A DNA stretch of 64,000 nt, taken from Azorinus chamasolen. Its lineage: Eukaryota; Mollusca; Bivalvia; Cardiida; Solecurtidae. The stretch spans positions 60,667,453 through 60,731,452 of the forward strand of contig OY755239.1 in the NCBI GenBank assembly GCA_963576725.1. Direction: 5' to 3'. The notes below the pieces were generated by a model, which saw only the letters and a list, made by a program, of their open reading frames with translations, ran no database searches and was not told the origin of the DNA. A program made the position numbers and the translations under genes. Positions 297 through 62,394 of this stretch are shown in pieces. Every line of letters starts with the position of its first letter. Within the stretch, counting starts at the first letter, position 1.

Positions 297-501
297 CAGT
301 AAAACCCCGCTAATACGACCACCAAAAAGGGGCATAATTCTGGGTGGCAGAGGCAGGTGGTAGCTTAATGCAGGACGAAAGTTATACAGAAAGCTCCTAT
401 AGGAGCTTTCTGCATAACGTTCGTCCTGCATTAAGCAACCACCTGCTTTAAACGACATCAGTGGCTGTTTATTAAGTGGTCGCATTAGCGGGGTTTCACT
501 G
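297..501. mobile_element. Family A palindromic MITE (A1)
   Basis: Terminal repeats CAGTAAAACCCCGC...GCGGGGTTTCACTG are flanked by TA (295-296, 502-503). The interior is a long hairpin with tip GCTCCTATAGGAGC and outer arms GTGGTAGCTTAATGCAGG / CCTGCATTAAGCAACCAC, which pair except for one A-A mismatch. The ends and TA target resemble pogo/Tigger-type transposons. It has no coding capacity and would depend on a transposase encoded elsewhere (inference). Confidence 0.88.
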
Positions 502-503
502 TA

Positions 504-854
504 TTTGTCAAATATATATATATATAAGAGACTTGCGTAAGCTTTTAGAGCTTGCTTTTGCAAACATGTTACCTCATCAGTGAACGTTCCAACGTGATTG
601 AATGTGATTTTAACATATGTAAATATATCTACTATTTCTATTTTTCTCCATTTATGTAAAACTCATTATGTTTACGTTTGCGCTTTTCGATTATTAAAGT
701 CTTTGTTTTTGTTACATTTATTGTTAGACCCCATTTTACAGACAAACACTCAAAAACGTCATAATTATAAATTTGGGGGTTCGTATTTTTATACAAATTT
801 GAATATTCCGGGGGAATATAAAACGGACAGAAAAACATATCTTTCTCACAGTTG
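504..854. other. No gene seen
   Basis: AT-rich sequence with a short (TA)n tract near 513-523. Open frames here have no recognisable domain. Confidence 0.6.
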
Positions 855-1139
855 CTAAAATGCAAGTTTAAACCACACTATACCGTTTTCATGCAGACGA
901 TCATATTGCTCCGTAACACGGTATGCGGTATCCTTGAGCTCTTCTGACGCACGTTTTTGTACCATCATTTTATCGGGGTAATCGTTGACTTTCATTGATG
1001 CGTCTGAATCGGTGATCCTTAACGTGTTTTCACAGAAATCTAATATTATAGTTTTGGCGCAGTTCTCATTTTGCCTTTCCTCAGACGAGTTACATTGCTG
1101 AAACCCCATGAAAAGGGGATTGTCACGCATAGAACGTGA
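855..1139 (-). pseudogene. L1-type LINE ORF1 fragment
   Basis: The minus strand reads SRSMRDNPLFMGF, then ENCAKTIILDFCENTLRI, then DYPDKMMVQKRASEELKDT. This order matches the RNA-binding (RRM and C-terminal) part of L1-type ORF1 proteins, which typically have SMRDNLLF, ENC...FC...L.I and DK..VR..A..LKDT. The segment between the second and third blocks that normally carries the HR.G motif is missing. A TAG lies directly upstream in frame (1140-1142) and a TAG ends the frame at 855-857. This is a truncated relic, not a working gene; ORF1 normally binds element RNA and acts as a chaperone. No adjacent endonuclease or reverse transcriptase was found. Assignment is from motif memory only. Confidence 0.55.
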
Positions 1140-1316
1140 CTAGACAGCCAACAAATCCTCGTTCAGCTTGTGAATCTTATTGCATTTACGAGAAAAATGA
1201 TCACAATACACAAAGCGATTCTTTGTCTAAATAATTAAAATTGGTCCCCCCTTTCTGAATACCAACGGCTTAAATATTGTATCTAACTTTATCACTGAGG
1301 AAAAGGAAGTTTATGA

Positions 1317-1382
1317 TAAACAGTGCAGAAACCGATCAAAGGGCTTCCCAGGAGCCATTTGATCTAGGTCCACACTGTTTGC
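1317..1382. repeat. Family L hairpin core, degraded
   Basis: AACAGTGCAGAAACCGATCA and TTTGATCTAGGTCCACACTG are the decayed arms of the L hairpin, with tip CTTCCCAGGAG. No TTAA ends are recognisable. Confidence 0.55.
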
Positions 1383-1952
1383 AGGTATTTTATATATTCG
1401 ATTTCCGCACATTAAGGGTTTATATTGAAACACTATGAAAAATAATGTTCAATAAGCCACGGCATACATATGAAAAATAGCAGACCTCCAGCCACATACA
1501 ACTACTTCCAGGCTGGAGTCATGAATCACTAAAATCAAATCGAGCTGAGTTGAGAAAAGAAAACAAATGATATAATATTAGTGTGTATAAAGATCTCGAG
1601 TTTGCATACTTAATAAAAGTATCTGATATACACACATGTACGCAGAATCCAATGTATTTGTTGAAAACTCATGTAAATATCTCAATCAAAGCAGATATCG
1701 ACGTTTTGCTGGGTAGATCGATTTAATATGCTTATTATTGTATTGAAATTAATTGTGTTTTAAGTATAATATGTTATACGTAAAATGACAAAGAAATAGA
1801 ACGGTAATATATAACTAAATCGACTAAGAAAACATATGTATTTATCTACTCTGCTGTGAATACAGGCGCCTTTAATGCCAACTGTCTGTACAATTAGGTT
1901 TGAACTGATGGTTTGACTTAACGTCTGTGAACAATACAGTTTGTGTACATAA
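1383..1952. other. No feature recognised
   Basis: AT-rich sequence without recognised repeats or plausible coding frames. Confidence 0.55.
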
Positions 1953-2024
1953 GGTCTGGTAGCTCCGTGGCATGGGATTCGATTGTCAATCTAGCGGTCT
2001 TAATTTTAAATTCGATCATTTGTT
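1953..2024 (+). repeat. tRNA-like SINE head or tRNA pseudogene
   Basis: TGGTAGCTCCGTGGCATG resembles a tRNA D-arm (box A). It is followed by CGATTGTCAATC, which would give a GTC (Asp-type) anticodon loop, and by a decayed box B (AAATTCGATC). Acceptor pairing is not evident, so an SINE head or pseudogene is more likely than a functional tRNA. Confidence 0.45.
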
Positions 2025-2213
2025 CGAGCGCAATATTTGACGTATTTGTCGGAAGAAGCCAGATGTATCTATAGCAACATTTGAACTCTTAAGCTGGTCC
2101 TCATGCAGAAAGAAGACGAACTTAGCAGCGTGTAATCAGTAATTAATGGTGTAATTTGCTCAGATAACCAATAATCTGTTCACCGTCTACATCTGTGTCG
2201 ACAATTACGCTCG

Positions 2214-2580
2214 GAATGAATAAAGTAACTCATTATCATATATGTGTATACAGAACTTCGGCTACGCTCGAAACGAATAGGGTAACTCATTGCGAGGTTA
2301 GGACGTCCGTAAACCGGGTTAAATGCAAGTGGTGGTTATGTCACTGTCCGTTTCAAGGCGGTAATCTCTTTGTCACCCTTGCTTTTATGTTTATTGGACG
2401 TCTTTGTGCTTTTGTGTTTTTGTTCGTAGATGTTTTCGTCTCCTGTGTTTGTGTGTGCGTGCGCACGAGTGTGTGTAACTGTGTGGATATGTTGCTTGTT
2501 TGCCGTTGGTATTTTGGTGTTGGTTGCGGTTTGTGTGTGTCTTTTCCTGCTTGATTTTATTACTTTTTCATTTACCATGA
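2214..2580 (+). repeat. Interspersed repeat I/K
   Basis: GAGGTTAGGACGTCCGTAAA, a decayed AAACCGGTTTAAA, CACTGTCCGTTTCAAGGCGG and a GT-rich stretch occur in this order. The same order is found at 7.9-8.4 (minus), 10.05-10.3, 47.9-48.2 (minus) and 52.6-52.9 kb. A 30-bp duplicated block (ACGCTCG..CGAAT..GTAACTCATT) lies at its 5' side. Long low-complexity frames here are repeat artefacts. Confidence 0.7.
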
Positions 2581-2908
2581 TTTTGGAGCGATATTATAAA
2601 AACATTACGGCAACACGTTTTCTTTTGTTCGCTCATCTGGTTGAAAGGATGAGCATTTTTACATAACTGCACAATTCCGAATAAGTCCATGAGTTGATCC
2701 TCTAACTGACTGGTATACTGTAAGTCAGACATCTGGCATGTTTAGTCATGCCTTAAGCTACCAAATGTCTTAAACCCCAATATTAAATATTTTGGAGGTC
2801 CTTGTATATTCTTATCTGTAAACCTTATTCTGTCGTATGCATACTCGTATATATCTTTTGCCGCCCATCACATGTTACTGCTGAAGAAAATAACTGATAA
2901 TGGAAATA
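2581..2908. other. No feature recognised
   Basis: AT-rich sequence with no recognised element. Confidence 0.5.
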
Positions 2909-3110
2909 CAGTAGAAACCCTCTATAGCGGCCACTAAATTACATTAAGTATTTTGTGTTAAAGACAGGTGGCTGCTTAAAGCACGGGGAAAGTAAAACAT
3001 CGCTCCTATAGGAGCATTCTGTTTTACTTTCACTTTGTTTTATGCTGCCACCTGCCCTAAATACCAACCAATTAACACAATTTAGTGGCCGTTATTGAGA
3101 TGTTTTAATG
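2909..3110. mobile_element. Family A MITE (A3)
   Basis: Ends CAGTAGAAACCCTCTAT...TGAGATGTTTTAATG with TA on both sides (2907-2908, 3111-3112). The A3 subtype has GCGGCCACTAAATTA next to the end and AAAGTAAAAC in the hairpin arms; tip GCTCCTATAGGAGC. Confidence 0.85.
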
Positions 3111-3149
3111 TACCTTCGATCCATTTGAAAAAGCTATCATTTTGGAAAG

Positions 3150-3580
3150 AGGAAAACACAACTCCTCCTTTAATCTGAAAGTTGTGCGGTTTATTTGTGG
3201 TGTAAATAATAACAACGAATGGTAATTTTCACGTGTTCAGCGCTGGGCATTGCAGAATTATCTCCACTTGAAATTTGAGTATTTTTGTCATTTTGGATTG
3301 AAACATGGAGAGTTGGTGTCACAAAATCCTCCTTCAGTTTTAAGTGATTGAATTTATATTTTGTATACGTACATAATAACCACGAATGGTAGATGTGCAA
3401 GAAGCAAATTTCCCGTGTTTCCCCTGTGGACATTACAGAATTATCTCCACTTGAACATTGAGTATTTTTGTCATTTGGTCTTGTTACATGGGCTGTTGGT
3501 GTGCCAAGCTTGGGTTTGCAATCAATGCTGCTGTGCGGGGGTATTCATCACCTTTAGTGATAGTTCTAGTTTGTTGCCGG
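3150..3580 (+). repeat. Helentron/'pearl'-like tandem-repeat element J, copy 1
   Basis: Two diverged units share ACGAATGGTA, GCATTGCAGAATTATCTCC, GAGTATTTTTGTCATTTGG and GTTGGTGTC at about 166-bp spacing. The right end (ACCTTTAGTGATAGTTCTAG) is shared with the larger array at 27.8-28.8 kb. The layout fits non-autonomous Helentron-type elements reported from bivalves. Confidence 0.6.
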
Positions 3581-4876
3581 AAATATTTCCATCTTGTTGC
3601 GGCTGTACGACTTCTTCCTCATCGTATATACATATTTGTTTGCATTTATGGGACTTTTATGTTGTTACGGAGCATTGTAAACACAACTCACCCACGCTCA
3701 ATATAGCGTATAAACTTACAGTAACTGTCGTCTTACAATATAGTGTTATTATATTTATATGAACAGGCGGTATTCATTGCATTCTTATTTTCTTTTAGCG
3801 TGCATGTATACATGTAAAGGCGATGTAAAGTTGTAATTACAAACCATGCAATAAGGTTGTAAAACTAGAAATTACTCTTTACTTCATGTTTACCTCGTCG
3901 TTCTTAATGTGTACCATTGTCCATCTTTAAATCAACTCTTTTCTAAAGCCATAACTGCATCAGCCATTTTCAAACATACATGTAGTAATATGTGCACAAA
4001 CACCAATTTGCAACGACAATTTCGTAAACCATATTTTGTTTTGAGGAAAATAAATTTTCAGAAATATAGTACCTAGTACTTTTTAGAAGTATGTATGCGG
4101 AATAATGCGGTCGTATAATTTCGAAACCAATTTTGAGAAACCGAAACCTGACAGACAGACACGTTTATAGATACTTCAAACATGTAGTGCTGTGTCGAGA
4201 AATCAAGGGTACTATTCCGCAGATATTGACAAAAAGAATGACCGTCGGCGATGGCATTATTTGGTTTTGCACTTGCATGTAATGTGGAGTCATCCAGTCT
4301 CTCATATTGAACAACATATTAGCAAGTTGAGCCAGTATTATTTAATGAATATTGCGCTATATTTGATATGTGGGCGTAAGACCACATTCTCATCTTTGAT
4401 TTATGTCGGTATGTTTTATTATACCTCAATTTAATTTACAATGTTACTCTCCAATAGGCCACCGTAACATAGAAATACTGTCAGACCCAGCGGGAAAAAA
4501 ATACTGTCGGAAATATACTGTCTCCCGCTACCAAAGGCACGAAACATCTAGATCAGTGAGCGCTTGTTCAATTGTGTGCGTGAAGTCATCCGATTGACGT
4601 GATCGACTGACGTCATCTGACGCTTGTAATTTGATCAACAAACGACATTTTGACAATTGTTTATGTTTAGGGAAATGTCGGAGGGGGTCTGTCAAGATTG
4701 GACAGTGAAAAGGACTCCTCGAGTACATGTACTAATAGCGTGTAATTAATAGAAATATGAAGCTGTTCAGCGATTTTTAAGCACCGATTCGCTCTATAGC
4801 TTTTGTTTCAAACTGTTGTCATTGAATAAATCTCTTTGCTGGCGAAATTGATTGCGCCCTTCGGTACAATAAAATA
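3581..4876. other. No gene seen
   Basis: AT-rich sequence. A possible retroelement tail (GGTACAATAAAATAAATATC) lies at about 4863-4882. Short open frames show no recognisable motif. Confidence 0.5.
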
Positions 4877-5015
4877 AATATCATATCATATGGAGAACGA
4901 CAGCACGTATTGTCAACCCTCATTATGATAATGTCCACCTCGGCTAATGCCACGGTGGACATAACGAACCTCGGGTTGACAATACATGCTGTCGCTCTCC
5001 ATAGGGTGTGATATT
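4877..5015. mobile_element. 139-bp palindromic element
   Basis: AATATCATATCATATGGAGA pairs with TCTCCATAGGGTGTGATATT, and ATTGTCAACCC with GGGTTGACAAT. The middle is GTCCACCTCGG...CACGGTGGAC. Its ends do not match families A-L. Confidence 0.75.
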
Positions 5016-5327
5016 TATATAATATACATTTTTAAAGATGCAGATAGAGCATCGAGTATGCAAACACGAATAATGAACTATGTGCATAATATCACACCAA
5101 GGATAAAACGAAACGAGAAAACTAATCCCTCCATTTACATTGCAGTGGCATATTTGAATTTAGACATATCAAGAATACTCGTATCGGTACAGATAACTGT
5201 GCAATATTAAAGCAAAGACATCACTGCAATATCCTGATAGCTTATGGTAATCACATTGATATTTACAGTATACGGTATTGTAGATAACTAACCTTTAAGT
5301 CACATGTACTTGCACACTCGTAACTTG

Positions 5328-5571
5328 TTAAACCTTTCCTTCATATAAACGTTTTTTTCACGTATATATGCAAACAGAGTAGACACAAATCAGACGGCGC
5401 CTATAGGAGCCGTCTGATCAGGGTCTGCTCTGTTTGCCAGTTTGAAATTAAAATATGTTTCTTTCTTTTCTCAAAAGGCTTTACTTTTCCAACTGCCATA
5501 TTTCATTATAACTATTTTGTCCATGAATATTCAGTATGTTTGGAATAAACATAGAACAGGGAAAGGGTTAA
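5328..5571 (+). mobile_element. Family C TTAA MITE
   Basis: Starts TTAAACCTTTCCTTC, ends AGGGAAAGGGTTAA. The hairpin is GCAAACAGAGTAGAC...GCCTATAGGAGCC...GGTCTGCTCTGTTTGC. The right arm carries family C's TCATGAATATTCA-like block. Terminal CCCTTT/AAAGGG with TTAA resembles piggyBac-type MITEs. Non-coding. Confidence 0.82.
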
Positions 5572-6136
5572 AAAAAGAGTTGAACACACGCCAGCGGTTC
5601 AATGTGTGCAAAACTATTTGACAGTCTGGAATGGAAGAAAATCAACATTGAGGATTGTAGAATATTACATATTTGGTGATGAGTTCTAACCAGCAATAAA
5701 CCGGCCACATTTCTAAGTATTGCGACCAACAAATACGTTGAGTGATACCTGAAACATCCCCAAGGCAAGTGCCAGATCGTTGGCCTCTGAAATATCGGTA
5801 ACCAGACTATAATAAATTGAAACTATAATGAACGACCATTGGTGTCTGTAATTGTTTCGTTTGATCTAAACAGATTTTTTAGTTTATGTAATTAGTGGTC
5901 TGCTGCCAGAAACATTCTCAACAGTATATAACAGAAATCGTCACATATATATCACGTTTCACCCTGATACAAATTCATTTAATGAATAGATACCATAGAA
6001 CATGTTTTATTGAAAACTCATATCGCCTATCTTATGATCAGATAGATAGCGTGAGACTAATTAGAGACTGTAAGCGGCAAGAAGCAATAAGTTGAGCTTT
6101 TTACCCTTTGAAACCTATGTTTGTTGGAAAGTAATA
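5572..6136. other. No feature recognised
   Basis: AT-rich; no repeat family or coding signal was recognised. Confidence 0.5.
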
Positions 6137-6342
6137 CAGTAAAACCCTTCTAAACCGAAATTCTAGTATAGAAGGATTTAGATACTTGTTGGCAGGTGAC
6201 TGCTTAATGCAGGATGAAAGTCATACAGAAAGCCCCCGGGGGAGCTTGCTGCATGCATTCATCCTGTATTAAGCTTCCGCCAGTCCCCAATGCCAATATT
6301 TATACTGAATTGAACGTCCAAGTTCAGAGAGGGATGTTTCTG
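6137..6342. mobile_element. Family A MITE (A2)
   Basis: CAGTAAAACCCTTCTAAACCG...GAGGGATGTTTCTG with TA on both sides. The A2 subtype has CGAAATTCTAGTA near the end. Hairpin arms are diverged; tip GCCCCCGGGGGAGC. Confidence 0.83.
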
Positions 6343-8118: not shown

Positions 8119-8154
<36 letters not shown>

Positions 8155-15445: not shown

Positions 15446-15694
15446 TTAACCCTTCGTTTGCTGAATTTTAAAATACATTTCTCCTTCTTTACCCATGTCC
15501 TGTTGTATAATTACATATATATTCACTGTGTACAAGTATTTCGCTGTGCAATCACTGCTGTGGGGTGCACTGGTTGCACAATCAACTTTTAAATAGTGCA
15601 GACCCTGATGAGACAGCTCCTGCAGGAGCTGTCTCATTTGGGTCTTCACTAATTACAGGTAGGTATATTGACGCGAATAGCAAGGAAGGGTTAA
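15446..15694 (-). mobile_element. Family B TTAA MITE nested in A
   Basis: TTAACCCTTCGTTTGCTGAA...AGCAAGGAAGGGTTAA. The hairpin is intact (GACAGCTCCTGCAGGAGCTGTC). Second insertion in the same A host. Confidence 0.87.
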
Positions 15695-19026: not shown

Positions 19027-19880
19027 TTAACCCTTTTGGCGCCAAATTTCTAATTGTCGTCTGCAGTCCAAGTTTGTTAAATCATTCAGTAAAATAAGGA
19101 AATGAGATAGATAGATGCAAATTTCAAAGGAATAAATCACATATATAGAAATAGAGTTTGAGACAAATAGTGAAGTCCCTGATCAGACGCCGCCTTGAAA
19201 AGGCGGCTTCTGATCTGGGACTGCACTATTTGTCGTGGTGCATTTATGTGTAAACCGGGGTTAGGAAGTAGTCAACACCCGAGCAAGTTCGATGAAGTTT
19301 ATTAATGAAGTAATCTATGGAAAAGACTGTAATATAAACGAGAAACAATATACTAACTAACTATTGGTGTCTATAACAATTTAAAGAGTTCAACAGTACA
19401 TAGCCGCGCGATACCGAAACAGAATAAACTTACTAAATACATTCAACACCGACTTCGCTCAGTACTTATCAGACACATGGGCTATAGTTGACTTATTACA
19501 AATGTATTATTAAAACTGTTGTCGAGAGACAACAAAGTACAAGTAACTATAAATTATCTATATAACTATATATCTAGATGTTGCCATCAAGATGGACTGG
19601 AGCGCACTGAGCTTAGACAGCGGGAACGCATAGGAAGAAGATAGAGAGAAAGTCGGTGCAAAGCATGTGTAAATGTAATTTCGTGCATCTCATCTATCTC
19701 TCTCTCAATCATGCTCTCATACTCTAATGTATACGTGATATAACGAGATATACATGAAAGCAGATGGCATTCCAATCATTCTGATTATATGGAGCCATGG
19801 ATCCATAAAACTAAAGCAGACTACACTTTATTAATATGAAACCCTGGTTACATATGCGACTACGGCGGTGAAAGGGTTAA
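19027..19880 (-). mobile_element. Family D MITE interrupted by a solo LTR
   Basis: TTAACCCTTTTGGCGCCAAA...CGGCGGTGAAAGGGTTAA. The hairpin AGACGCCGCC / GGCGGCTTCTGATCTGGGAC is intact. GTGCATTTATG and TATGCGAC flank the insertion; D copies elsewhere have the uninterrupted GCATTTATGCGAC. Confidence 0.87.
19249..19852 (-). mobile_element. Solo LTR of a retrotransposon (604 bp)
   Basis: It begins TGTAAACCGGGGTT and ends AACCCTGGTTACA (TG...CA ends with short inverted repeats). TATG is duplicated at 19245-19248 and 19853-19856. On the minus strand AATAAA lies about 55 bases before the CA end, as expected of a polyadenylation signal in an LTR. No internal coding region or primer-binding site is present, so it looks like the product of LTR-LTR recombination. 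A 4-bp duplication fits Ty3/gypsy-type elements but does not prove the class. Confidence 0.75.
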
Positions 19881-20647: not shown

Positions 20648-20870
20648 TTAACTCTTTCCTCCATAAATACGCCTTTCTATGCCTCTGTAAAAGTCACTTT
20701 ATGAAACCATTGTGATAAATAGAGCATTTGCTCCTATAGGAGCAAATGCTCTATTTATCACAATGTTTTCAAAACTACACCACTTGTAAACTTTTCCTTT
20801 TCTCTAGTAAATGCTCCTAGATGTATTCAAAGAGATTGGGTCTAACAAAAGCCAATGGGGAAAGGGTTAA
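20648..20870 (-). mobile_element. Family F TTAA MITE with perfect hairpin
   Basis: TTAACTCTTTCCTCCATAAA...CCAATGGGGAAAGGGTTAA. ATTGTGATAAATAGAGCATT extends to tip GCTCCTATAGGAGC; the 56 bases form an uninterrupted palindrome with 28-bp arms and no spacer. Confidence 0.88.
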
Positions 20871-20963: not shown

Positions 20964-21213
20964 TTAACCCTTCGCTTGCTAATCACGTCAATATACGTAC
21001 CTGTAAATAGTGAAGACCCAGATGAGACAGCTCCTGCAGGAGCTGTCTCATCAGGGTCTGCACTATTTACAAGTTGATTGTGCAACCAGTGCACTGCACA
21101 GCAATGATTACACAGCGAATTACTTGTACACCGTGAAAATATATGTAATTATACAACAGGACATGGGTAAAGAAGGAGAAATGTATTTTAAAATTCAGCA
21201 AGCGAAGGGTTAA
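20964..21213 (+). mobile_element. Family B TTAA MITE
   Basis: TTAACCCTTCGCTTGCTAAT...CAGCAAGCGAAGGGTTAA; hairpin GACAGCTCCTGCAGGAGCTGTC. The 63-codon frame from ATG 21022 is open and stops in the terminal TTAA. Confidence 0.9.
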
Positions 21214-21701: not shown

Positions 21702-21847
21702 TTAACCCTTCTCTTGCTATTCACGTCAATATACCTACCTGTAAATAGTGAAGACCCAGTCTCATCAGGGTCTGCACTATTTACAAGTTGATTGTGCAAC
21801 CAGTGCACTCCACAGCAGTGATTTCACAGCGAAATATTTGTACACAG

Positions 21848-23212: not shown

Positions 23213-23462
23213 TTAACCATTCGCTTGCTGAATTTTAAAATACATTTCTCCTTCTTTACCCATGCCCTGTTGTATAATTACATATATCGTCACTGTGTAC
23301 AAGTAGTTCGCTGTGCAATCACTGCTGTTGAGTGCACTGGTTGCACAATCAACTTATAAATAGTGCAGACCCTGATGAGACAGCTCCTGCAGGAGCTGTC
23401 TCATCTGGGTCTCCACTATTTAAAGGTAGGTATATTGACGTAAATAGCAAGCGAAGGGTTAA
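23213..23462 (-). mobile_element. Family B TTAA MITE
   Basis: TTAACCATTCGCTTGCTGAA...AGCAAGCGAAGGGTTAA. Hairpin GACAGCTCCTGCAGGAGCTGTC. A TAA (from CAACTTATAAATAG) interrupts the frame seen in other copies. Confidence 0.88.
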
Positions 23463-23932: not shown

Positions 23933-24184
23933 TAAACACTTCCCTCATACAAATGTGTTTTCACGCAGTTGCAAACAGAGTAGACCAAGATCAGACGGCT
24001 CCTATAGGAGCCGTCTGATCAGGGTCTGCTCTATTTGCTAATGGAATTGAAAGATCTGTTTCTTTTACTTTCTAACATGGCTACGATGTTCCATTTTCAA
24101 TATTTCATATTAACTACTTTGTTCATGAATATTCAGTAGCTATTGAAATTTTGAATAAACATAGAACAGGAAGGAAAGGATTAA
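23933..24184 (+). mobile_element. Family C TTAA MITE
   Basis: Left end decayed (TAAACACTTCCCTCATAC); right end GGAAGGAAAGGATTAA. The hairpin is well preserved: TCAGACGGCTCC, tip CTATAG, GGAGCCGTCTGA. Confidence 0.8.
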
Positions 24185-25024: not shown

Positions 25025-25269
25025 TTAACCCTTTCGGCGCCAAATTTCTTATGTCGTCTGCAATCCAAGTTTGTTAAATCATCCAGTAAAATAAGGAAAT
25101 GAGATAAATATAATCAAATTTCAAAGGAATAAAGCACATATATAGAAATAGAGATTGAGACAAATAGTGAAGTCCCTGATCAGACGCCGCCTTGAAAAGG
25201 CGGCGTCTGATCTGGAACTGCACTATTTGTCGTGGTGCATTTATGCGACTGCAGCGGTGAAAGGGTTAA
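25025..25269 (-). mobile_element. Family D TTAA MITE
   Basis: TTAACCCTTTCGGCGCCAAA...GCGGTGAAAGGGTTAA. Hairpin CAGACGCCGCCTTG / AAAAGGCGGCGTCTG. Confidence 0.9.
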
Positions 25270-26793: not shown

Positions 26794-27005
26794 TTAACCC
26801 ATTTGCTCTCACGATCCCATATATGGGATGTAGGCAAACAGTGTAGACTCTAATCAGACGCCGCATACTGCGGCGTCTGATCAGAGTCTACACTGTTTGC
26901 TGATAGGAAATTCAAAACGAAATTGAAAAGTTAGGCCATGCACCCCTTAGATGAACTAATCCAATATAGAAACATGCAAGAATGCACTGGGCGCAAATGG
27001 GTTAA
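26794..27005. mobile_element. Family G TTAA MITE
   Basis: TTAACCCATTTGCTCTCACG...TGGGCGCAAATGGGTTAA. Hairpin CAAACAGTGTAGACTC, CAGACGCCGCATACTGCGGCGTCTG, GAGTCTACACTGTTTG. Only copy in the window and very well paired. Confidence 0.88.
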
Positions 27006-29629: not shown

Positions 29630-29803
29630 GCATCTGCAAACAGGACAGACCCAGATCAGAGGGCTCCTAGAGGATTCCTCTGATCAGGGTCTGCACTGTT
29701 TGTCATACAAACTCTTCTAGCAAGATTAAGCCTTTCATACGAAGGGACTTTATAGTTAAACACTGGCTATTCCACTTTGAAACTGCACGGTTGAACGGGT
29801 TAA
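29630..29803 (-). mobile_element. Family L TTAA element
   Basis: GCAAACAGGACAGACCCAGA, TCAGAGGGCTCCTAGAGG, CCTCTGATCAGGGTCTGCAC. The right side CTATTCCACTTTGAAACTG and GGTTGAACGGGTTAA is the L terminus reversed. The left terminus is unclear. Confidence 0.72.
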
Positions 29804-30582: not shown

Positions 30583-30987
30583 CTGTAAAACCACGATACT
30601 ACGAATATTCAAATAGGTATCAGTATTGATCCTTAACACGGGTGGCTGTTTAATACAGGGTTGGCAGTCATGCAGAAAGCTCCTTTAGGAGCTTTCTGCA
30701 TGACTGCCAACCTGTATTAAGCAGCCATCTGCCTACAAAGATAGAAAGTCCTCAAGTACAACATGCACTAAGCAGCCATCTGCCTACAAAGACAGAAATT
30801 CATTATTTAAATGTCGTAGTATCGATTTGGTATTTTGGGCAGGTGGTTGCTTAAAGCAAGGTGAAAGTAAAACAGAACGCTCCTATAGGAACGTTCTGTT
30901 TTACTTTCACCTTGCTTTAAGTATCCACGTGCATTTAACACAAAGTACTTGATGTAATTTAGTGGTCGTTATAGAGAGGTTTTACTG
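30583..30987. mobile_element. Two fused family A elements (A4 + A3)
   Basis: Left end CTGTAAAACCACGATACTAC (A4) after TA; right end TTATAGAGAGGTTTTACTG (A3) before TA. Between the hairpins, GTCGTAGTATCGATTTGG (A4 right end) runs into GTATTTTGGGCAGGTGG (A3 left interior), so both inner termini are lost at about 30826. TAAGCAGCCATCTGCCTAC is duplicated. First hairpin: perfect 26-bp arms, tip TCCTTTAGGA. Confidence 0.8.
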
Positions 30988-34881: not shown

Positions 34882-35116
34882 TTAACCCTTTGCTTGCTAT
34901 TCACGTCAATATACCTACCTGTAAATAGTGAAGACCCAGATGAGACAGCTCCTGCAGGAGCTGTCTCATCAGGGTCTTCACTATTTACAAGTTGATTGTG
35001 CAACCAGTGATTGCACAGCGAAATACTTGTACACAGAGAAGATATATGTAATTATACAACAGGGCATTGGTAAAGAAGGAGAAATATATTTTAAAATTCA
35101 GCAAGCGTATGGTTAA
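34882..35116 (+). mobile_element. Family B TTAA MITE
   Basis: TTAACCCTTTGCTTGCTATT...AGCAAGCGTATGGTTAA. A 15-base deletion after GCAACCAGTG keeps the frame open. Hairpin GACAGCTCCTGCAGGAGCTGTC. Confidence 0.88.
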
Positions 35117-41187: not shown

Positions 41188-41590
41188 CAGTAAAACCTCT
41201 CTATAACGGCCACTAAATTGTGTTAAGTAATTCGCATTTTAGGGCAGGTGGCTGCTTAAAGCAAGGTCAAAGTAAAACAGAACGCTCCTATAGGAGCGTT
41301 CTGTTTTTCTTTCACCTTGCTCTAAGCAGCCACCTGCCTTTAACACGAACTACAGTAGAACCCCTCTAATGCGACCACTTAATGAATAAGCATGGCTGTC
41401 TTTATAAGCAGGTGGTTGCTTAATGCAGGGCAAAAGTAATGCAGAAAGCTCCTCTAGGAGCTTTCTGCATTACTTGTGTCCTGCATTAAGCTACCACCTG
41501 CATCTAGCACCCAGAATTGTTTAGGTGGTCGCATTAGCGGGGTTTTACTGTACTTGATGTAATATAGTACGTTATAGAGATGTTTTACTG
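41188..41590. mobile_element. Family A3 MITE hosting an A1 MITE
   Basis: CAGTAAAACCTCTCTATAAC...GTTATAGAGATGTTTTACTG between TA. AACACGAAC-TA and TA-CTTGATGTAAT join to give the ACACAAAGTACTTGATGTAA seen uninterrupted at 30.94 kb. Confidence 0.9.
41353..41550. mobile_element. Family A1 MITE nested in A3
   Basis: CAGTAGAACCCCTCTAATGC...GCATTAGCGGGGTTTTACTG with TA at 41351-41352 and 41551-41552. Tip GCTCCTCTAGGAGC; arms keep T-T. Confidence 0.93.
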
Positions 41591-41866: not shown

Positions 41867-42081
41867 TTAACCCTTTCGCTGCCAATGCCGGATCTGTGAT
41901 TACCTATGCAAACAGTTTGGATCCAGATGAGACGCCGAGTAACTCGGCGTCTCATCAGCATCCAAACTGTTTGTTACTGTTACTATGTTTTTGAAACAAA
42001 AATGAAGAAAATAAAAAAAAAGAAATTTTGTAGCAGACGACAAAGTTAGCAGATGACAGAATTTGGTAGCGAAAGGGTTAA
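41867..42081 (+). mobile_element. Family E TTAA MITE
   Basis: TTAACCCTTTCGCTGCCAAT...TTGGTAGCGAAAGGGTTAA. Hairpin GGATCCAGATGAGACGCCGA, tip GTAAC, CGGCGTCTCATCAG. Best-preserved E copy. Confidence 0.92.
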
Positions 42082-42603: not shown

Positions 42604-42808
42604 CAGTAAAACCCCTCTAATGCGACCACCAAAATGGGGTATCATTCTGGGTCTTAGAAGCAGGTGGTAGCTTAATGCAGGATGAAAGTAATGCAGAAAG
42701 CTCCTGTAGGAGCTTTCTGCATTACTTTCGTCCTGCATTAAGCAACCACTTGCTTTTAAATACACTAATATCTACTAATTAGGTGGTCGCTTTAGAGGGG
42801 TTTCACTG
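42604..42808. mobile_element. Family A MITE (A1), intact
   Basis: CAGTAAAACCCCTCTAATGC...TTTAGAGGGGTTTCACTG between TA. Arms are almost perfect; tip GCTCCTGTAGGAGC; A-A mismatch at GGTAGCTT / AAGCAACC. A good reference copy for A1. Confidence 0.93.
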
Positions 42809-50107: not shown

Positions 50108-50311
50108 CAGTAAACCCTCTCTATAACGACCACTAAATTACATCAATTATTTTGTTTTAAAGGCAGGGTGATGCTCAAAGCAAGGTGAAAGTAAAACAGA
50201 ACGCTCCTATTGGAGCGTTCTGTTTTACTTTCACCTTGCTTTAAGCAGCCACCTGCCCAAAATACCAACTAATTAGCACAATTGAGTGGTCGTTATAGAG
50301 AGGTTTTATTG
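50108..50311. mobile_element. Family A MITE (A3)
   Basis: CAGTAAACCCTCTCTATAAC...TTATAGAGAGGTTTTATTG between TA. Arms AGGTGAAAGTAAAACAGAAC / GTTCTGTTTTACTTTCACCT are perfect; tip GCTCCTATTGGAGC. Confidence 0.9.
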
Positions 50312-50319
50312 TATTTCGC

Positions 50320-50420
50320 TGACATTGGCGAATTCGTGATTACTTTTTCAAACAGATTGGTTCCAGATGAAATGTCGTGAAATTTACCATGATCAAACCG
50401 TTCGTTACTCTTACAATGTA
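50320..50420 (+). repeat. Family E degenerate copy
   Basis: CGCTGACATTGGCGAATTCG, TTCAAACAGATTGGTTCCAG, GATCAAACCGTTCGTTACTC. Confidence 0.5.
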
Positions 50421-50422
50421 TT

Positions 50423-50672
50423 TTAACCCTTCGCTTGCTATTCACGTCAATATACCTACCTGTAAATAGTGAAGACCCAGATGAGACAGCTCCTGCAGGA
50501 GCTGTCTCATCAGGGTCTGCACCATTTACAAGCTGATTGTGCAACCAATGCACTCCGCAGCAGTGATTGCACAGCGATATACTTGTACACAGTGAAGATA
50601 TATGTAATTATACAACAGGGCATGGGTAAAGAAGGAGAAATGTATTTTAAAATTCAGCAAGAGAAGGGTTAA
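50423..50672 (+). mobile_element. Family B TTAA MITE
   Basis: TTAACCCTTCGCTTGCTATT...CAGCAAGAGAAGGGTTAA. Intact hairpin and open 63-codon frame. Inverted relative to the copy 180 bp downstream. Confidence 0.9.
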
Positions 50673-50699
50673 AAGCTAATGGAAGAAGCTTATATTATA

Positions 50700-51154
50700 C
50701 AGTAGAACCTGTCTTAAATGGTCATCAAAAGGAGGTATAGTTATCATGGATCATTTAAGGCAGGCGGTAGCTTAATGCAGACGAACAGTTATACAGAAAT
50801 ATCCGATATGAGTTTGCTACATTACCTTTGTCATGCATTAAGCAACCGCATGCTTTTTAACCCTTCTCTTGCTGAATTTTAAAATACATTTCTCCTTCTT
50901 TACCCATGCCCTGTTGTAGAATTACATATATCTTCACTGTGTACAAGTATTTCTCTGTGCAATCACTGCTGTGGAGTGCACTGGTTGCACAATCAACTTG
51001 TAAATAGTGCAGACCCTGATGAGACAGCTCCTGCAGGAGCTGTCTCATCTGGGTCTTCACTATTTACAGGTAGGTATATTGACGCGAATAGCAAGCGAAG
51101 GGTTAAGACCCATTTGTTCAATACATTAATACCCGCTTAGGAAAGGCTCTACTG
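50700..51154. mobile_element. Family A MITE hosting a B element
   Basis: CAGTAGAACCTGTCTTAAAT...TTAGGAAAGGCTCTACTG after TA. The host resumes as TTAAGACCCATTTGTTCAAT, matching the uninterrupted TTAAGACTCCTGTGTTCAAT at 21.62 kb. Confidence 0.87.
50857..51106 (-). mobile_element. Family B TTAA MITE nested in A
   Basis: TTAACCCTTCTCTTGCTGAA...AGCAAGCGAAGGGTTAA, TTAA at both edges. Hairpin GACAGCTCCTGCAGGAGCTGTC. Confidence 0.92.
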
Positions 51155-53532: not shown

Positions 53533-53806
53533 CTTCTTTCTTTTTGATTGTATATTATCTTCTCTCTGCATAGTATGCTTATTATTTTGTATGCATGCAG
53601 TGACACGTGATATTAATAATAAGACACAATAAACTACAGTGAAATAAGAACGAGACGTTCCAGCATTCCGCATTCTGATCCCATGTGTATTAATCAAATA
53701 CACTAGTATCCTCGAATATCCGTCATAATAGAACGAGTGGTTATTTTTATTTTAAAAACAATTTCACAATGAAGAAAATATTCCAAAATAGGGAATTAAT
53801 ATACTA

Positions 53807-54040
53807 CATAAATACTTGAACTGATGTGATCTAATATTTCGACCACCAAGGGCCTTTTTCAAAGAGTAGCATGTCAAAATACATGTCACATTTTTATTAC
53901 ATGCATTCAGCTATAAAATCCTCTTTGATTTTATGGCTGAGTGCATGTAATAAAAATGTGACGTGTATTGTGACATGACAATCTTTGAAAAGGGCCCTTC
54001 GTGTTCGAAATATTAGATCAGAGCAGTTCAAGTATTTATG
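53807..54040. mobile_element. 234-bp palindrome O
   Basis: CATAAATACTTGAACT pairs with AGTTCAAGTATTTATG, AAGGGCCTTTTTCAAAGA with TTTGAAAAGGGCCCTT, ATGTCACATTTTTATTACAT with ATGTAATAAAAATGTGAC; tip AAAATCCTCTTTGATTTT. Half a copy lies at 21.3 kb. Confidence 0.85.
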
Positions 54041-54115
54041 TAAAAACAATTAGCAGATTTAGTATACCATGCTACTAGGCTATGAGCACCGTCTCCTTGA
54101 CGAATCCTTATCCCA

Positions 54116-55563: not shown

Positions 55564-55599
55564 AGTGACGTAATAAAGGGGTGCGGATAAACTTTGGTT

Positions 55600-56062: not shown

Positions 56063-56163
56063 TGGGGGGTTATAGTTGGATTCGAACCTACGCTAGGTCA
56101 TACAAAACGTAAACTGAAAAGCTTTTTCTCCAACGGCTTAGCCCGCACGGCTACTCCGCCACC
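56063..56163 (-). repeat. tRNA-Leu/Ser-like sequence
   Basis: Minus strand GGCGGAGTAGCCGTGCGGGC then TAAGCCGTTGG resembles the D-arm of class II tRNAs. GGTTCGAATCC (56078-56088) is a perfect box B. The anticodon stem and acceptor do not fold cleanly and the length is too great, so it is a pseudogene or SINE head. Confidence 0.5.
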
Positions 56164-57375
56164 GACGGTAAACATCGCTGATTTATCACTTTTATCAACT
56201 TAATCCGCCGCTGGAGAAACGAGGTTTAATAAGAATCAAGTAGGAAAGCAAAGATTATAGATAAAAAGTACATTTTTCCATTCTACTCGCATGCTAATTG
56301 GATTAAGAAGCTCTTAAAAGGACGGAAATGGCATAGACCTAAATAATATGTTCAGCTCCATCGATTTATGAGTAGGTCAATCTAAAAATAGAAACTGAGC
56401 CTTCCGTTACTCGAATGTTATACGGAATGCAAAAATCATTGCACTTTGTTCTGGGATAAAACAATCATGTCCATTTGAATTAAAATATCGACAATCTGGA
56501 TTCAACTGATCCTATTGTTCAAATTCAATCACGTTTTCTGTAAATACTTTAATATTCAAACTCCTTTGTTAGTGATAGTTTGACTGCGTATTTTTTAAAT
56601 AACCAAAACTCGCGCATGCAAATACCCACAACTCGTCCTGTCCGGTAGACAGCGATATTCATTTTACTATCCCAATTCAAAACTCCTTGAGATACATTGT
56701 AAACAATCCCAGAATACGCCGACATCCAATTCCAACACTGTGGAGAAAGACGGAGGGGTCTCTCCAATATGTCATTATGAAACATCGACTAATAAATAGC
56801 CATGAGGTCATTATTTCTTACATATCGGGAGATTCAGCTAATGGCATTTGGAAGAAAGGCCCCAGAAGGTTTTTCGGTGCATTTCACAAATAAGATTGTT
56901 TCGTGTATAGGATACAGAAGAACATCGGGTAGATCTACTGACCTACGGCAAGTCGGATGGAAGACTTTCTTATATGAAACATCAAAATGCCCAGATGTGT
57001 AATTTCGAATGAGCGTGAATTGCACAATAGTGATTTACCATGTACACCTTTCAACGAGTCTGTTCTAATTCATAGCATCATCTGTCGTAAATTAATATTT
57101 AATCTGTGATTTATATCTTTGGTAATGAAAATCAAATCAAATTGGTAAATCGGATGAAATTAACTGTTCGGCAGATACTTATGCTGTTAATGCTGTATGG
57201 TTATCTACCTCCTCGTATGTCAGTTGCATTGCATATCAATTGATGACATAAAGATTGTTCATGTAATGTATTCAACGTTTAACTACATACAGTTATTCTT
57301 TTATTTATTTCCACATTGTTCAAGTACAATCCGTCATATTCTGGTACCATTCACTTGTCATGTTCAAGGCGAAAT
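56164..57375. other. No gene seen
   Basis: Frames at 56549-56785 (minus) and 56687-57025 (both strands) show no recognised motif; this is slightly GC-richer spacer DNA. Confidence 0.4.
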
Positions 57376-57600
57376 TTAACCCTTTCACTATTCTATATTT
57401 ATTCCAAATTTTAATACCTACTGCATATTCATGGACAAAATATGGAAGGTGGAACATTGTAGCAATAAATAAACAGATCTATCAAACTCCTTTAGTAAAC
57501 AGAGCAGACCCTGATCAGACGGCTCCTATATGAGCCGTAAGATCTGGGTCTACATTGTTTGCAGATGCATGAAAAGCTTTTATATGAGGGAAAGGGTTAA
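57376..57600 (-). mobile_element. Family C TTAA MITE
   Basis: TTAACCCTTTCACTATTCTA...TATGAGGGAAAGGGTTAA. Hairpin AACAGAGCAGACCCTGATC, GACGGCTCCTATATGAGCCG, GATCTGGGTCTACATTG. Confidence 0.9.
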
Positions 57601-57687
57601 ACAAAATATATGTATATGACACTTCATCCAAAAAGATTGGTGACCGATATTTGACAGAGAATGCTCTGCCATTATACCGCAGTTAAA

Positions 57688-57928
57688 TTAACCCTTTCGG
57701 TGCCAAATTTCTAATTGTCGTCTGCAAGTTTGTTAAATCATTCAGTAAAATAAGGAAATGAGATAAATAAATGCAAATTTCAAATTAATAAAGCATTGAT
57801 ATAGAAATAGAGATTGACACAAAAAGTGAAGTCCTCGATCAGATGCCGACTTGAAAAGGCGGCGTCTGATCTGGGACTGTACTATTTGTCTTGGTGCATT
57901 TATACAACATTGGCGGTGAAAGGGTTAA
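57688..57928 (-). mobile_element. Family D TTAA MITE
   Basis: TTAACCCTTTCGGTGCCAAA...GGCGGTGAAAGGGTTAA. Hairpin CAGATGCCGACTTG / AAAAGGCGGCGTCTG. Confidence 0.88.
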
Positions 57929-58124
57929 AAACAACACGATTGTACATTTTTAAAAGTATCACACTTAGTGTCGATGTGCCCTAGACACAGCCAAGCCGAT
58001 ATTTACTTTTCAGTAAGGCCTTTTGTGACGTTATGTCTTTTCTCACATACATTCCCCTTATCTCCGAGTTAGAACAACGGGTTAAGATTCCCTGATCTGT
58101 AACACGTGTAAGATCACTTTAGAA

Positions 58125-58151
58125 CATATATGACGTCATACGTCATATATG
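58125..58151. promoter_or_regulatory. Paired TGACGTCA-type palindrome
   Basis: CATATATGACGT-CAT-ACGTCATATATG: 12-bp perfect arms containing a CRE/ATF-like TGACGTCA and a second ACGTCA. No gene is adjacent, so a regulatory role is unsupported. Confidence 0.3.
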
Positions 58152-58239
58152 ACATCAAACCATGGAAACCGATGTTTACATGTCATTTAAACGGCGAAAA
58201 TACACCTTTTTGTTATGTGAGAAAAAGAATCTGATGCTC

Positions 58240-58335
58240 GTTGTCTTTTAAGATCACATGTTCCTATACTCAATAAGGTTCGCTTAATGACATTTTCTAA
58301 GGCTCGTTTAGGAAAATGTGATCTTAAAAGACAAC
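58240..58335. repeat. 96-bp imperfect palindrome
   Basis: GTTGTCTTTTAAGATCACAT pairs with ATGTGATCTTAAAAGACAAC; the middle holds AAGGTTCGCTTA and AAGGCTCGTTTA. Confidence 0.78.
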
Positions 58336-58399
58336 TCGCAACAGATCCTCTATATCATACTATTGCGTAAGTTGTGGCATCATATCGTGTCTTTTGTTT

Positions 58400-58575
58400 T
58401 TGATGAGCTTGGTTGAGGTTTGGTTTTACGGCACTGCTAATATGACGTTGGCACGGTACATACAATGAACAGGTAGTGTATGTGTTAGCGTGTATTTAAT
58501 TTGTGCTTCTAGTGTTGATGTACACTATCGTGTGCCATTTCCAAATTTCTGGCCTGACTTTTACTCTATTTATAT
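58400..58575. repeat. K repeat pieces
   Basis: GAGGTTTGGTTTTACGGCAC is the reversed K tail. It is followed by TTTGTGCTTCTAGTGTTGAT and CTATCGTGTGCCATTTCC in plus orientation, so two K parts meet head to head. Confidence 0.5.
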
Positions 58576-58590
58576 TAAATTTATGTATTC

Positions 58591-58838
58591 TCAACTCTTT
58601 CCCTTATGTAAGCGCATGTTTACGCATCTGCAAACAGAGTAGTCCCAGATCAGAGGCTCCTATAGGAGCCGTCTGATCAGGGTCTGCCCTGTTTGCTTTT
58701 GACATAATATAGGTCTGATTTTACAGTTTTTGACAAAGCGAAAATACCCCTTGAAAAGTATATATTAAACTAATTGAGCTTACAAATATTCACCCTGTCA
58801 TTAGTTCTTGCAATAATACTGAAGAGGGAAAAGGTTAA
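58591..58838 (+). mobile_element. Family C TTAA MITE
   Basis: TCAACTCTTTCCCTTATGTA...AGAGGGAAAAGGTTAA (left TTAA mutated to TCAA). Hairpin CAGATCAGAGGCTCCTATAG / GGAGCCGTCTGATCAGGG. Confidence 0.87.
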
Positions 58839-58929
58839 ACATTTGTCTGTGTCAAGTGATACTTACTTCCGAGTCGGTCAAACTTAAACGAATCATATGA
58901 CCAAGTATAGAACAGTAAGCAAATATAAG

Positions 58930-59120
58930 ACATTTGCAAACTGGGTAGACCTAGATCAAAGGGATCCGGGGGGGGGGGGGTTTCATTGATTAGAATGTAC
59001 ACTGTTAATCATAAATAATACTTTCGTCGGTGATATATTTTGATTGTTCTATTTGTTTAGTTAATATTTAGAAAGAAAGGGAGGTTCCAATTTTAATTAT
59101 TCATCCATTTAAGGGTTAAG
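58930..59120. mobile_element. Family L/C-like element with G14 tract
   Basis: GCAAACTGGGTAGACCTAGA, TCAAAGGGATCC, then 14 G (58967-58980), GATTAGAATGTACACTGTTA and CATTTAAGGGTTAAG. The hairpin tip is replaced by the G run. Confidence 0.5.
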
Positions 59121-59650
59121 ATCATTTGTTAGTAGGTTGTTTCATCTAGGTTCATAAGGCGTTCGTATATATATTACATCTTCCGCTGTACAATTCCCAA
59201 GACACTTTCGTAATGAGGACTAGCCGAACGTTGCTTATGTTCCACGTAAAATTTGATGGATTGTTGTCAATGTGTATTAATCCGAAAATGACAGTTAAAG
59301 CTAATAAATAATTTAAACTCACAATCAGTGCACGATTGATTACATTATGAGTTCTTATAGGTCATACAAAATGTTCACAGCGGTATACTTATCGATATCA
59401 GCGCTAAACAAAGCTAATGACTGATCAAACTCCTTTCTGTATTAAACTAAACTTACTTCTAATTCATTTCAGCTTTGAAGAAACCATTGAAAGATGGTCA
59501 GATAACTTGGATCAAATGAGATTTTCCAATTATTATGTCAGTACATGCGTTTAGCATTGACATTAAATACACTTTTGCGGAGTACAGGCAGACCACTGGA
59601 ATATCATGAATAAGGTTTTTTCTTTAACAAGACCGACAGTGTCATAAATA
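59121..59650. other. No feature recognised
   Basis: Nothing assigned. Confidence 0.42.
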
Positions 59651-59837
59651 CAGTAAAACCACTCTAAACGAAACGTTGAATTAGTATCAAAACAGATCTT
59701 CCATACCATACAGGTCGCAGTTTAATGCAGGTTGAAAAGCTTGTAGTAAGCTCCGAAGGGAACATTCTGCATGACTTGAACCCAGCATGAAGCAGTCAGC
59801 TACCTGTAAAATTCTGGTTTAAAGGGTTCTTAACATC
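59651..59837. mobile_element. Family A MITE (A2), right end decayed
   Basis: CAGTAAAACCACTCTAAACG after TA; GCAGTTTAATGCAGGTTGAA, TGCATGACTTGAACCCAGC; right end TTCTGGTTTAAAGGGTTCTT. Confidence 0.75.
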
Positions 59838-60299
59838 TCTCTTTTACAGTGCATTGTTGACATGAAACTCGTGCACTAACAACCGTTTGGCTGCTAGACC
59901 ACCGACAAATGTTTGCGAAATAAGAACCATTGTGTTGAATGCTACAACAGAAATTTGCTACCAAACAAAACGCCCACATGCTGCGAAACAACCACAATAA
60001 TGAGTTGAACTGTAAATTATTCCCCGCGGTAAAAATGTACATCTGAAACCGATATTTCAGACAATTAATTGGAAGTCGACTGACAGTAATATGTTAACGA
60101 CGTTGGTCATTATTCTTACAGGGTAAGGTATTCTCACAATACTGATAAATTACATCAGACTGTTTCAAAGTATTCTTGCAATCTAAGACAAATTGCGGTT
60201 ATAACTTCTTAATTATTTTACGGTGTATTGCGATAGTCTTGTAATTAGTGTTCACCGTCCGTCTTCCGCCATCCGTCGTGTGTCGTCCACCGTAATATA
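59838..60299. other. No gene seen
   Basis: The minus-strand frame 59830-60042 has no recognised motif. Confidence 0.42.
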
Positions 60300-60598
60300 T
60301 ACGTATTTACAAACAGAGTAGGGCCAAATCAGAATGTCGTGATCTGTTCTGCTAGCTAATGAAATGACATAGACCAGATTCTACAGTTCTGCAGTAAAAT
60401 ACTCTTGTCCATAGTGCCATTTGAACATACATTTAATACAGAGCAACATATAAAGGTGCGTACTCAAATAATAAAATCGTTCTTTCTGGTGTAGAAATAA
60501 GGAAGTTATTCTTGAAACTATTTTAATTAACCCATTTTATCTGGAGATCAGTAATAAATATTCATAGTCATTATTTCTTACACAAACATTCAGGTTAA
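60300..60598 (+). mobile_element. Degenerate family C with M sequence inside
   Basis: TTTACAAACAGAGTAGGGCC and ATAGACCAGATTCTACAG begin a C copy; ATATTCATAGTCATTATTTC, CAAACATTCAGGTTAA ends it. Between them AAGGTGCGTACTCAAATAAT and GGAAGTTATTCTTGAAAC belong to repeat M. Confidence 0.6.
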
Positions 60599-60804
60599 CC
60601 CATTCCCTCATAGGCTCTTTTAGACTCAAGCTCTTTGAATAACCAAAAAGGAACATTTACTAGAGAAAAGGACCTTTTTAGAATTGTGTAGTCTTGGAAC
60701 CATTGTGATAAATAGAGCATTTGCTCCTATGGAGCAAATGCTCTATTTATCATAATGGTTTCAAAAAGTAACGTGAATTTATGGAGGAAACAGTTAAGGG
60801 TTAA
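60595..60804 (+). mobile_element. Family F TTAA MITE abutting C
   Basis: TTAACCCATTCCCTCATAGG...AACAGTTAAGGGTTAA. Hairpin CATTGTGATAAATAGAGCAT, TTGCTCCTATGGAGCAA. Its left TTAA is also the right TTAA of the C copy. Confidence 0.88.
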
Positions 60805-61499
60805 AGAACATCGTTTAGCGACTGTGCTAACTTAAGTATTTCTTAATACCAGATGTCTTCACTACTTGCCACCCATGCGTATTTGGAAATCATATTCTTA
60901 GATATTACCAGTGCTTGCTTTCAAAATAGTTTATAGGCGTACATGTATACCGAATTCCTTCATATTGCTATTGATATAACAAATATACATGACTTTCACG
61001 AACAGAGATATCTTCCTATTACGGCTAGATTGTGACATTCAAACACCCCCATTCCCAACATAAGCGGTCCAATTCAAGCAATGAAAATGTCGTACAAAAC
61101 CTTTAAGACACAATGGGAATATAAAACAACTTCACCGAAATGGTTAAATTAGTTAATTAAGTACACAATACATGAACATTATCTTCAAAAGAAAAGTAAT
61201 AGCCTCGAATGATGCTAGCTTTCTATATACGGTTCTCAGAATCTGAATCATTTGTACGGATGGGTTCCTCGCAGTGTCATCTATCAAAGTCATTTCAAAT
61301 ATATTTGCATAGGAATACAAAAATAACGTGAGGGGTAAGGATAGTGTTTCATATATGGTTATATACGTTTTCACTTTCAAAAGTATTACTTTCAGAAAGG
61401 AATTATCCGCAGGCCAAACTGAGAAAGTTAGAGACATACTTACGCGATTGTGTTTTGTCAGTGCATTTAGATATCTTACTTACTAAGGTCTGCATTGTA
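60805..61499. other. No gene seen
   Basis: A 94-codon minus-strand frame (61153-61437) has no recognised motif. Confidence 0.42.
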
Positions 61500-61899
61500 C
61501 CTGGTCTCCTGATGATACATCCATATGTCAAATATTTAAGAGCTATGTCATAAGACAAGACAGTTCTGGCACATACAATAGTTTCCTACTTAAGGTATAC
61601 AAATGTGGCCTCTAGGTCACAGGTCAAGGTCACATAAAGGTCCTCATGGTTTCTAACGCTCATAATGATACATCCACAGTCTCAAGTATCTAAACCTTTG
61701 ATAAAAATACAAAAAAAAAACGTTCTGGCACGGACAATAGTTTCCAATTTAAGGTAATTTATAAATTTAACCCCGGTGTCACAGATGAAGGTCGTCATGG
61801 TTTGAGACCCTGGTTCCCACCATGATACATTCACATGTCAAATATCTAAGGCCTATCTCAAAGATCAAACAAGTTCTGGAACGGATACTATTTATCTAT

Positions 61900-62142
61900 T
61901 TAACCCTTTCCCTTATATAAACGTGTTTTCACGCAAACAGAGTAGACCCAGATCCTAGAGGAGCCGCCTGATCAGGGTCTGCGCTGTTTGCTTATGGAAA
62001 TTGGTAGACCTGTTTCTTTAGTTTCTAAAATGGCTACAATATTCCACCTTGCATATTTCAATATTCATGTGTACCTATTTCGTCAATAAATATTCAGTAG
62101 GTAATGAAAGTTGGAATAAACACAGAACAGGGACAGTGTTAA
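61900..62142 (+). mobile_element. Family C TTAA MITE (first of a tandem pair)
   Basis: TTAACCCTTTCCCTTATATA...CAGGGACAGTGTTAA. The left hairpin arm is shortened (CCAGATCCTAGAGGAGCC). Confidence 0.87.
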
Positions 62143-62394
62143 CCATTTCCTTTATGTAAGCGCATTTTCGCGCATCTGAAAACAGGGTAGACCCAGATCA
62201 AACGGCTCCCATAGGAGCCGTCTGATCAGTGTCCGCTCTGTTTGCTTATGGTGTAATATAGATCTGAATCTATAGATGCTGCCGGAGCCAAAATATCATG
62301 TGTTCATATGCCATTATAAAATAATCTTATTAATATTTATGACGTAATTATTTTTACATGAATATTCAACAGGGAAATGGTTAAGGTACATACA
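62139..62394 (+). mobile_element. Family C TTAA MITE (second of a tandem pair)
   Basis: TTAACCATTTCCTTTATGTA...CAACAGGGAAATGGTTAA, sharing TTAA 62139-62142 with the first. Hairpin CAAACGGCTCCCATAGGAGC, CGTCTGATCAGTGTCC. Confidence 0.9.

Follow-up and report, generated by a model that had tools for sequence, protein, structure and literature searches.

The 64,000-nucleotide stretch analysed here (the window; Azorinus chamasolen, assembly GCA_963576725.1, contig OY755239.1, positions 60,667,453 to 60,731,452) is rich in palindromic miniature inverted-repeat transposable elements (MITEs), and one hairpin tip, GCTCCT-N2-AGGAGC, lies at the centre of elements flanked by TA as well as of elements flanked by TTAA. 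Outside the identical tip no similarity was detected between the A and the TTAA stems, and one TTAA stem carries different tips. I tentatively favour the view that these are two lineages of short non-autonomous palindromic MITEs, namely the TA-inserting A1-A3 and the TTAA-inserting, piggyBac-like B, C, L and F together with D, E and G, and that the palindromic centre has been exchanged, with selection on the tip as a close rival and chance third.

The shared tip in the window and in the genome

The initial annotation had assigned this tip to elements of five families, A, B, C, F and L. It is indeed common to the named A, B, C and F elements (coordinates below); the right arm of L is not AGGAGC, its centre reading GCTCCT-AG-AGGATT. 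The window holds 15 exact tips (14 bases each) versus none in 100 shuffles, and these sit at the centres of near-perfect palindromes. In the whole assembly, searched over 1,723,440,353 bases in 137 contigs, there are 389,419 exact copies, one per 4.4 kb, versus 58 of the reversed pattern, a control of equal composition that contains CpG and may be rarer for that reason. A 200-kb sample made of stretches from 20 genome places (GC content 35.6%) contains 37 exact tips. A systematic scan, from which low-complexity palindromes were left out, returned 45 palindromes for the window alone and 155 for window and sample together, where the tip is the commonest palindrome with 6-base arms (n = 52), followed by ATGAATATTCAT (n = 22; a word was counted only if it was no shifted piece of the GCTCCT tip). 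By motif alone, 111 of the 155 belong to the A, B, C and F classes. Four hairpins of the window, including C 23971..24038 and F 20699..20774, fold as single-stranded DNA with a 4-base loop, and no Rfam family reached the gathering score within the window. In 10 of 11 palindrome families the six loop-adjacent bases are GC-richer (0.50-0.67) than the remaining stem (0.27-0.54).

The elements and palindromes of the window are the following; none has a strand assigned.

297..501, A1 element, TA-flanked, ends CAGTAAAACC / CAGTGAAACC (reverse complement), tip 393-406
3002..3015, tip of an A2 element
30679..30692, tip of an A3-type element, palindrome 30659-30712
41188..41590, A2 element (tip 41284-41297) with nested A1 (41353-41550, tip 41448-41461)
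42604..42808, A1 element named in the initial annotation, tip 42700-42713
15616..15629, tip of a B element, TTAA type
20999..21074, B palindrome named in the initial annotation, tip 21030-21043
23357..23422, B palindrome, tip 23383-23396
34917..34992, B palindrome, tip 34948-34961
50461..50530, B palindrome, tip 50489-50502
50996..51071, B palindrome, tip 51027-51040
23971..24038, C palindrome named in the initial annotation, tip 23998-24011
58656..58669, tip of a C element
20699..20774, F palindrome named in the initial annotation, tip 20730-20743
60694..60764, F palindrome with odd centre GCTCC-TAT-GGAGC
29637..29702, L palindrome with the imperfect tip given above, reading GGGCTCCT-AG-AGGATTCC
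19162..19234, D palindrome, TTAA-complex stem, tip GCCGCCTT-GAA-AAGGCGGC
25159..25231, D palindrome, tip as in the preceding one
26834..26900, E palindrome, TTAA-complex stem, tip GCCGCA-TAC-TGCGGC
41909..41973, G palindrome, TTAA-complex stem, tip GCCGAGT-A-ACTCGGC
39332, further G palindrome, TTAA-complex stem, tip other than GCTCCT

The nested A1 sits at a TA inside the A2 element, with the TA duplicated; an intact A2 (locus L052) served as comparison copy. Two B elements at 50415-51114 are inverted relative to each other and separated by 180 bases, with arms of 260 nt that are 96% complementary. A palindrome at 53805-54042 (116-nt arms, 90% complementary, 6-nt loop) is unrelated to the tip families.

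Ends, target sites and stems

Families were built from arms aligned by their distance to the centre and from the consensus of copies; windows that contained N or came within 170 bases of a locus end were dropped beforehand, and only orientable copies (17 of 32 for B, 15 of 36 for F) or the first 60 of 128 (C) were aligned. The assignment of A to TA sites, and of B, C and F to TTAA sites with CCCTT- or CCCATT-type ends, is borne out by these consensus sequences. A1, A2 and A3 are flanked by TA and begin CAGTAAAACC (consensus end TA-CAGTAAAACC), the whole reading TACAGT...ACTGTA with duplication of TA, and 24 of 29 intact elements are 190-220 bp long (in 10-base classes). They would be MITEs of the Tc1/mariner type, a superfamily name suggested by the TA site. 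A2 is palindromic over its whole length in the consensus, and the idea that A arose as a hairpin inserted into a TA element was rejected on this ground. A test for repeats of the A end within the A stem gave P = 0.036, 0.55 and 0.82 for A1, A2 and A3, and no claim is made of it.

Duplication of the TTAA target is seen for B, C and F, the consensus of which starts TTAA-CCC (TTAA-CCCTTCGC, TTAA-CCCTTTCC and TTAA-CCCATTCC, respectively); the 46 TTAA...TTAA elements gathered came from a search that itself demanded TTAA. The piggyBac-type terminal motif CC[C/T]T (PMC2872659) is present in B (CCCTTCGC) and C (CCCTTTCC) and absent from F, which begins CCCATT. B, C, L, D, E and G have a common stem, AAAYAG...GAYCC.GATSAGA, and F combines TTAA with a different one. 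When the tip is left out, A1-A3 are mutually related, as are B, C, D, E, G and L (0 to 3 of 1000 shuffles), and no significant similarity was found among A, the B/C/D/E/G/L group and F, either over the whole stem (lowest for A1-E, P = 0.07 with mononucleotide and 0.052 with dinucleotide shuffles) or in a local stem test (lowest for A2-C, P = 0.14 and 0.053, respectively).

The right end of F resembles the left end of C past the first six bases (P = 0.001 from 2000 shuffles, about 0.03 when corrected for the 28 comparisons made); the F left end and the B end compared with the C end were not significant (P = 0.40 and 0.28), nor was the C-left/E-left pair, and B-left/E-left gave P = 0.047. F was placed in the TTAA complex because its end matches C, not on the terminal motif, and it probably belongs with B, C and L, which, as judged from stems alignable over 30 nt, are one group. 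The TTAA elements altogether look like one piggyBac-like MITE complex with a common core. Counting five separate families was therefore an over-count, since the stem of B, C and L is shared and also occurs in D, E and G, and since the F end matches C. The statement that the sequence outside the tip differs by family falls for B, C and L and for the F and C ends, and it stands for A against the TTAA stems, where lineages without significant stem similarity carry an identical tip.

Viral contigs gave no match for the C-type tip pattern or for the TTAA-stem pattern, and the sole genome-contig match of the stem pattern is a TTAA-complex hairpin with a GCCACA-type tip (positions 1-90 of MUIB01000095.1); this contig, filed as a spirochaete metagenome-assembled genome, is probably animal DNA joined to a bacterial contig. 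An open reading frame running through a B hairpin (50293-50607, minus strand) has a 94% identical match in a predicted 134-aa protein from an ENA contig (P0001), and such MITEs therefore enter protein databases; this was the one protein found with the translated B hairpin, and a translated search with A found none.

Tip and stem among copies

The decoupling of tip and stem runs in both directions, one stem having three tips and three stems having one tip. The seeds used for consensus building include the tip wholly or partly, and those of the outer-stem and arm-pair surveys exclude it. Arm pairs of GTGAAAGT (A2/A3) number 49,331 genome-wide versus 28 for the control, and among 62 A places listed, 59 have a tip within 4 substitutions of the 12 fixed bases (29 of them exact) and 3 have lost it by deletion. 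Arm pairs of the C-type stem, GATCAGAC...GTCTGATC, number 135,601 versus 7; among 100 such places listed, 73 are of the GCTCCT type (within 4 substitutions; 38 exact), 11 carry the E tip, 10 the D tip and 6 another one. Both sets of places start at the beginning of one contig and are non-random samples. Within them the tips hold once copies are gathered, as the initial annotation had proposed to check.

If up to one change per arm is allowed, both arms contain GCTCC in 35 of 51 A pairs, in 27 of 29 F pairs and in 86 of 141 pairs bearing the AAAYAG.G.AGACCC stem, and in none of the 22 pairs with the G-type stem; the remaining pairs have it in one arm only, or show another tip, a deletion or decay. 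At 21737-21788, as in some A copies, a palindrome lacks its tip or has lost the inner stretch of only one arm, as if the centre had been trimmed after insertion. In the outer-stem survey, for which equal lengths only were used (37 of 56 pairs for A3, 25 of 35 for A1, 32 of 39 for A2, 49 of 59 for B, 91 of 133 for C and 9 of 34 for F), tip positions match the consensus in 0.76-1.00 of arms and stem positions in 0.36 to 1.00, stem agreement being low where subfamilies differ; the innermost base agrees in 0.47-0.69 of arms in A, B and C and in 0.89 in F. The centre of F is more often of odd length (31 bases, 16 of 34 pairs) than even (32 bases, 9 of 34). The A seeds overlap each other, as do some of the loci L002-L031, and some copies are thus counted twice. 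The central dinucleotide varies by family, being AT in 20 of 21 exact A2 tips and AG/CT in 6 of 8 exact A3 tips (both among the matches listed), GC in 15 of 21 B tips, and AT (14), AG (8) or AC (8) in the 32 of C.

All 80 distinct exact tips collected (104 copies before removal of duplicates) could be classed, as A (19), B (21), C (32) or F (8), by a tolerant classifier that may swap B for C. Tips whose two-base flanks differ on both sides from those of the main families form a first set of 1,453 and a second of 771. Ten loci of the first were read and proved to be A2 variants (4) or to have TTAA-type stems (6); the second, with flanks mostly GAGCTCCT among the matches listed, may be a small third tip-bearing family. 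That the tip varies independently of its stem is a hint of swapping or of selection.

Exchange of the centre and its rivals

Module exchange, a common ancestral hairpin and selection had initially been put side by side. Within the TTAA complex, common descent of the core accounts for most of what is shared, and the tip-bearing families most likely inherited their tip; between A and the TTAA complex any of the three may apply. That a single stem bears three tips, and a single tip three stems, suggests replacement of centres as whole units; between the lineages, as between tip types on one stem, the centre would have been replaced without its stem. The likeliest mechanism would be short-patch exchange, in which a hairpin arm is copied from the opposite arm or from a neighbouring hairpin; such copying would take over a new centre while both arms remain complementary, so that the new centre would be symmetric. 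A single origin of the A and TTAA tips, the direction of transfer and the copying step are what this account would add to the observations. Opportunity for exchange may be seen in the density of exact tips and in the element nested in another at 41188-41590. Exchange is also favoured by the abundance of the tip word beside its reversed control (389,419 versus 58) and by the scarcity of runs of 7 equal bases in other registers between unrelated arms (2 in 65,989 compared positions).

Several points weigh against exchange. No clear chimera was found, the 29 of 29 intact TA-ended elements carrying an A core, and among the 62 A places listed none has a GCCG (D- or E-type) tip. A and the TTAA complex match in one event only, the chance of which is put at about 1e-3; mutation plus arm copying could also yield different tips on one stem, and the evidence comes from the genome of one species. 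As for candidate chimeras, apparent C copies with TA ends proved to be loose matches, and neither a C-like hairpin adjoining an A-type right end with no left end nor a TTAA-flanked stretch resembling part of A1 was counted.

Rather less probable, if closest to exchange in its standing, is selection, by which the tip would be a symmetric binding site or a structure aiding movement or persistence, and unrelated MITEs would have converged on it or retained it. The constancy of the arms while the central dinucleotide varies by family fits this account, for a free spacer in a selected symmetric site would explain it, as do the common end and tip of F and C on stems with no detectable common part, the large share of the A, B, C and F classes among palindromes (111 of 155) and the GC-richer tips of 10 of 11 families. 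GC-rich tips are, however, general and not peculiar to GCTCCT; moreover, conservation among copies is not clearly higher for the tip (0.76-1.00) than for the stem, and D, E and G prosper although they lack GCTCCT, the E and D tips occurring on the same stem.

Chance, which the initial annotation had named as able to refute its claim, is an unlikely account, in which the unrelated A and TTAA complex coincide in 7 bases per arm and common descent does the rest. Only two tip lineages were found (80 of 80 copies, and the 10 odd-flank loci read), and 22 cross-lineage pairs (from one A tip, four TTAA tips and one each for J, K and H, three other palindrome families met in the scan of window plus sample) times 4^-7 give about 0.0013, a post hoc figure. 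Off-register runs of 7 bases do arise: among unrelated arms at all offsets, 2 besides the tip were found in 65,989 compared positions, a comparable rate. Against a coincidence stands the small number of expected matches, as does F, the stem of which is unrelated to that of C and which would need a second coincidence or retention of the tip alone. Chance is thus improbable, and it is kept as a rival because the estimate is post hoc and concerns one cross-lineage match.

Descent of A and the TTAA elements from one ancestral palindrome, with ends and stem diverged beyond recognition, is the least probable of these accounts: CAG and CAGA lie equally far from the centre in the consensus arms of A and C, AAACAGA is common to A2 and C off register, and the best local stem score is that of A2-C (P as above), but neither the A stem against B, C or F nor the A2/A3 ends against the TTAA ends is significant, and A2 is palindromic end to end, so that its ends and core look like one unit.

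Known systems and meaning

The TTAA side follows a pattern already described in corals, where CMITE has a TTAA target, piggyBac-type ends and several families with varied ends around a conserved internal region, which its authors suggest may matter for transposition; its copy number is estimated at about 1600 (PMC2872659). Compared by description, the likeness lies in TTAA, in varied ends and in a common internal region (the related stems of B, C, D, E, G and L), and F starts with CCCATT as does the coral AmiPB4 (PMC2872659). The unusual part is the TA-flanked A lineage with the same tip: CMITE elements are all TTAA, without a TA lineage having the internal region, and a palindromic tip is not described in the parts of that paper examined (PMC2872659). 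MITEs are abundant in bivalves (PMC10294476), and the architecture of A resembles, again by description, a MITE-like mollusc repeat in the haemoglobin genes of Lucina pectinata (consensus 1: 210 bp, 30-bp inverted ends, 77-bp palindromic centre), for which, in contrast, no target duplication was found (PMC4732748). Kolobok, which occurs in bivalves, shares the TTAA duplication; its termini are 5'-RR...YY-3' (PMC9587614), whereas the TTAA elements here begin CC, and Kolobok was set aside on this ground. The literature searched gave no report of one hairpin tip common to TA and TTAA MITEs, and GCTCCTATAGGAGC was absent from the printed paper text searched, which did not cover supplements, figures or split sequence.

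To sum up, a tip that recurs over two insertion classes and varies on one stem points to an element centre that is exchanged or selected. As to how some MITEs rise to hundreds of thousands of copies, attention has so far gone mostly to their ends. It is conceivable, though on present evidence rather doubtful, that the tip is a working part of MITEs in two transposon superfamilies, as a symmetric protein site or as a structure protecting or priming the hairpin, and that, passed on as a replaceable cap, it is partly behind their several hundred thousand copies in this one genome.

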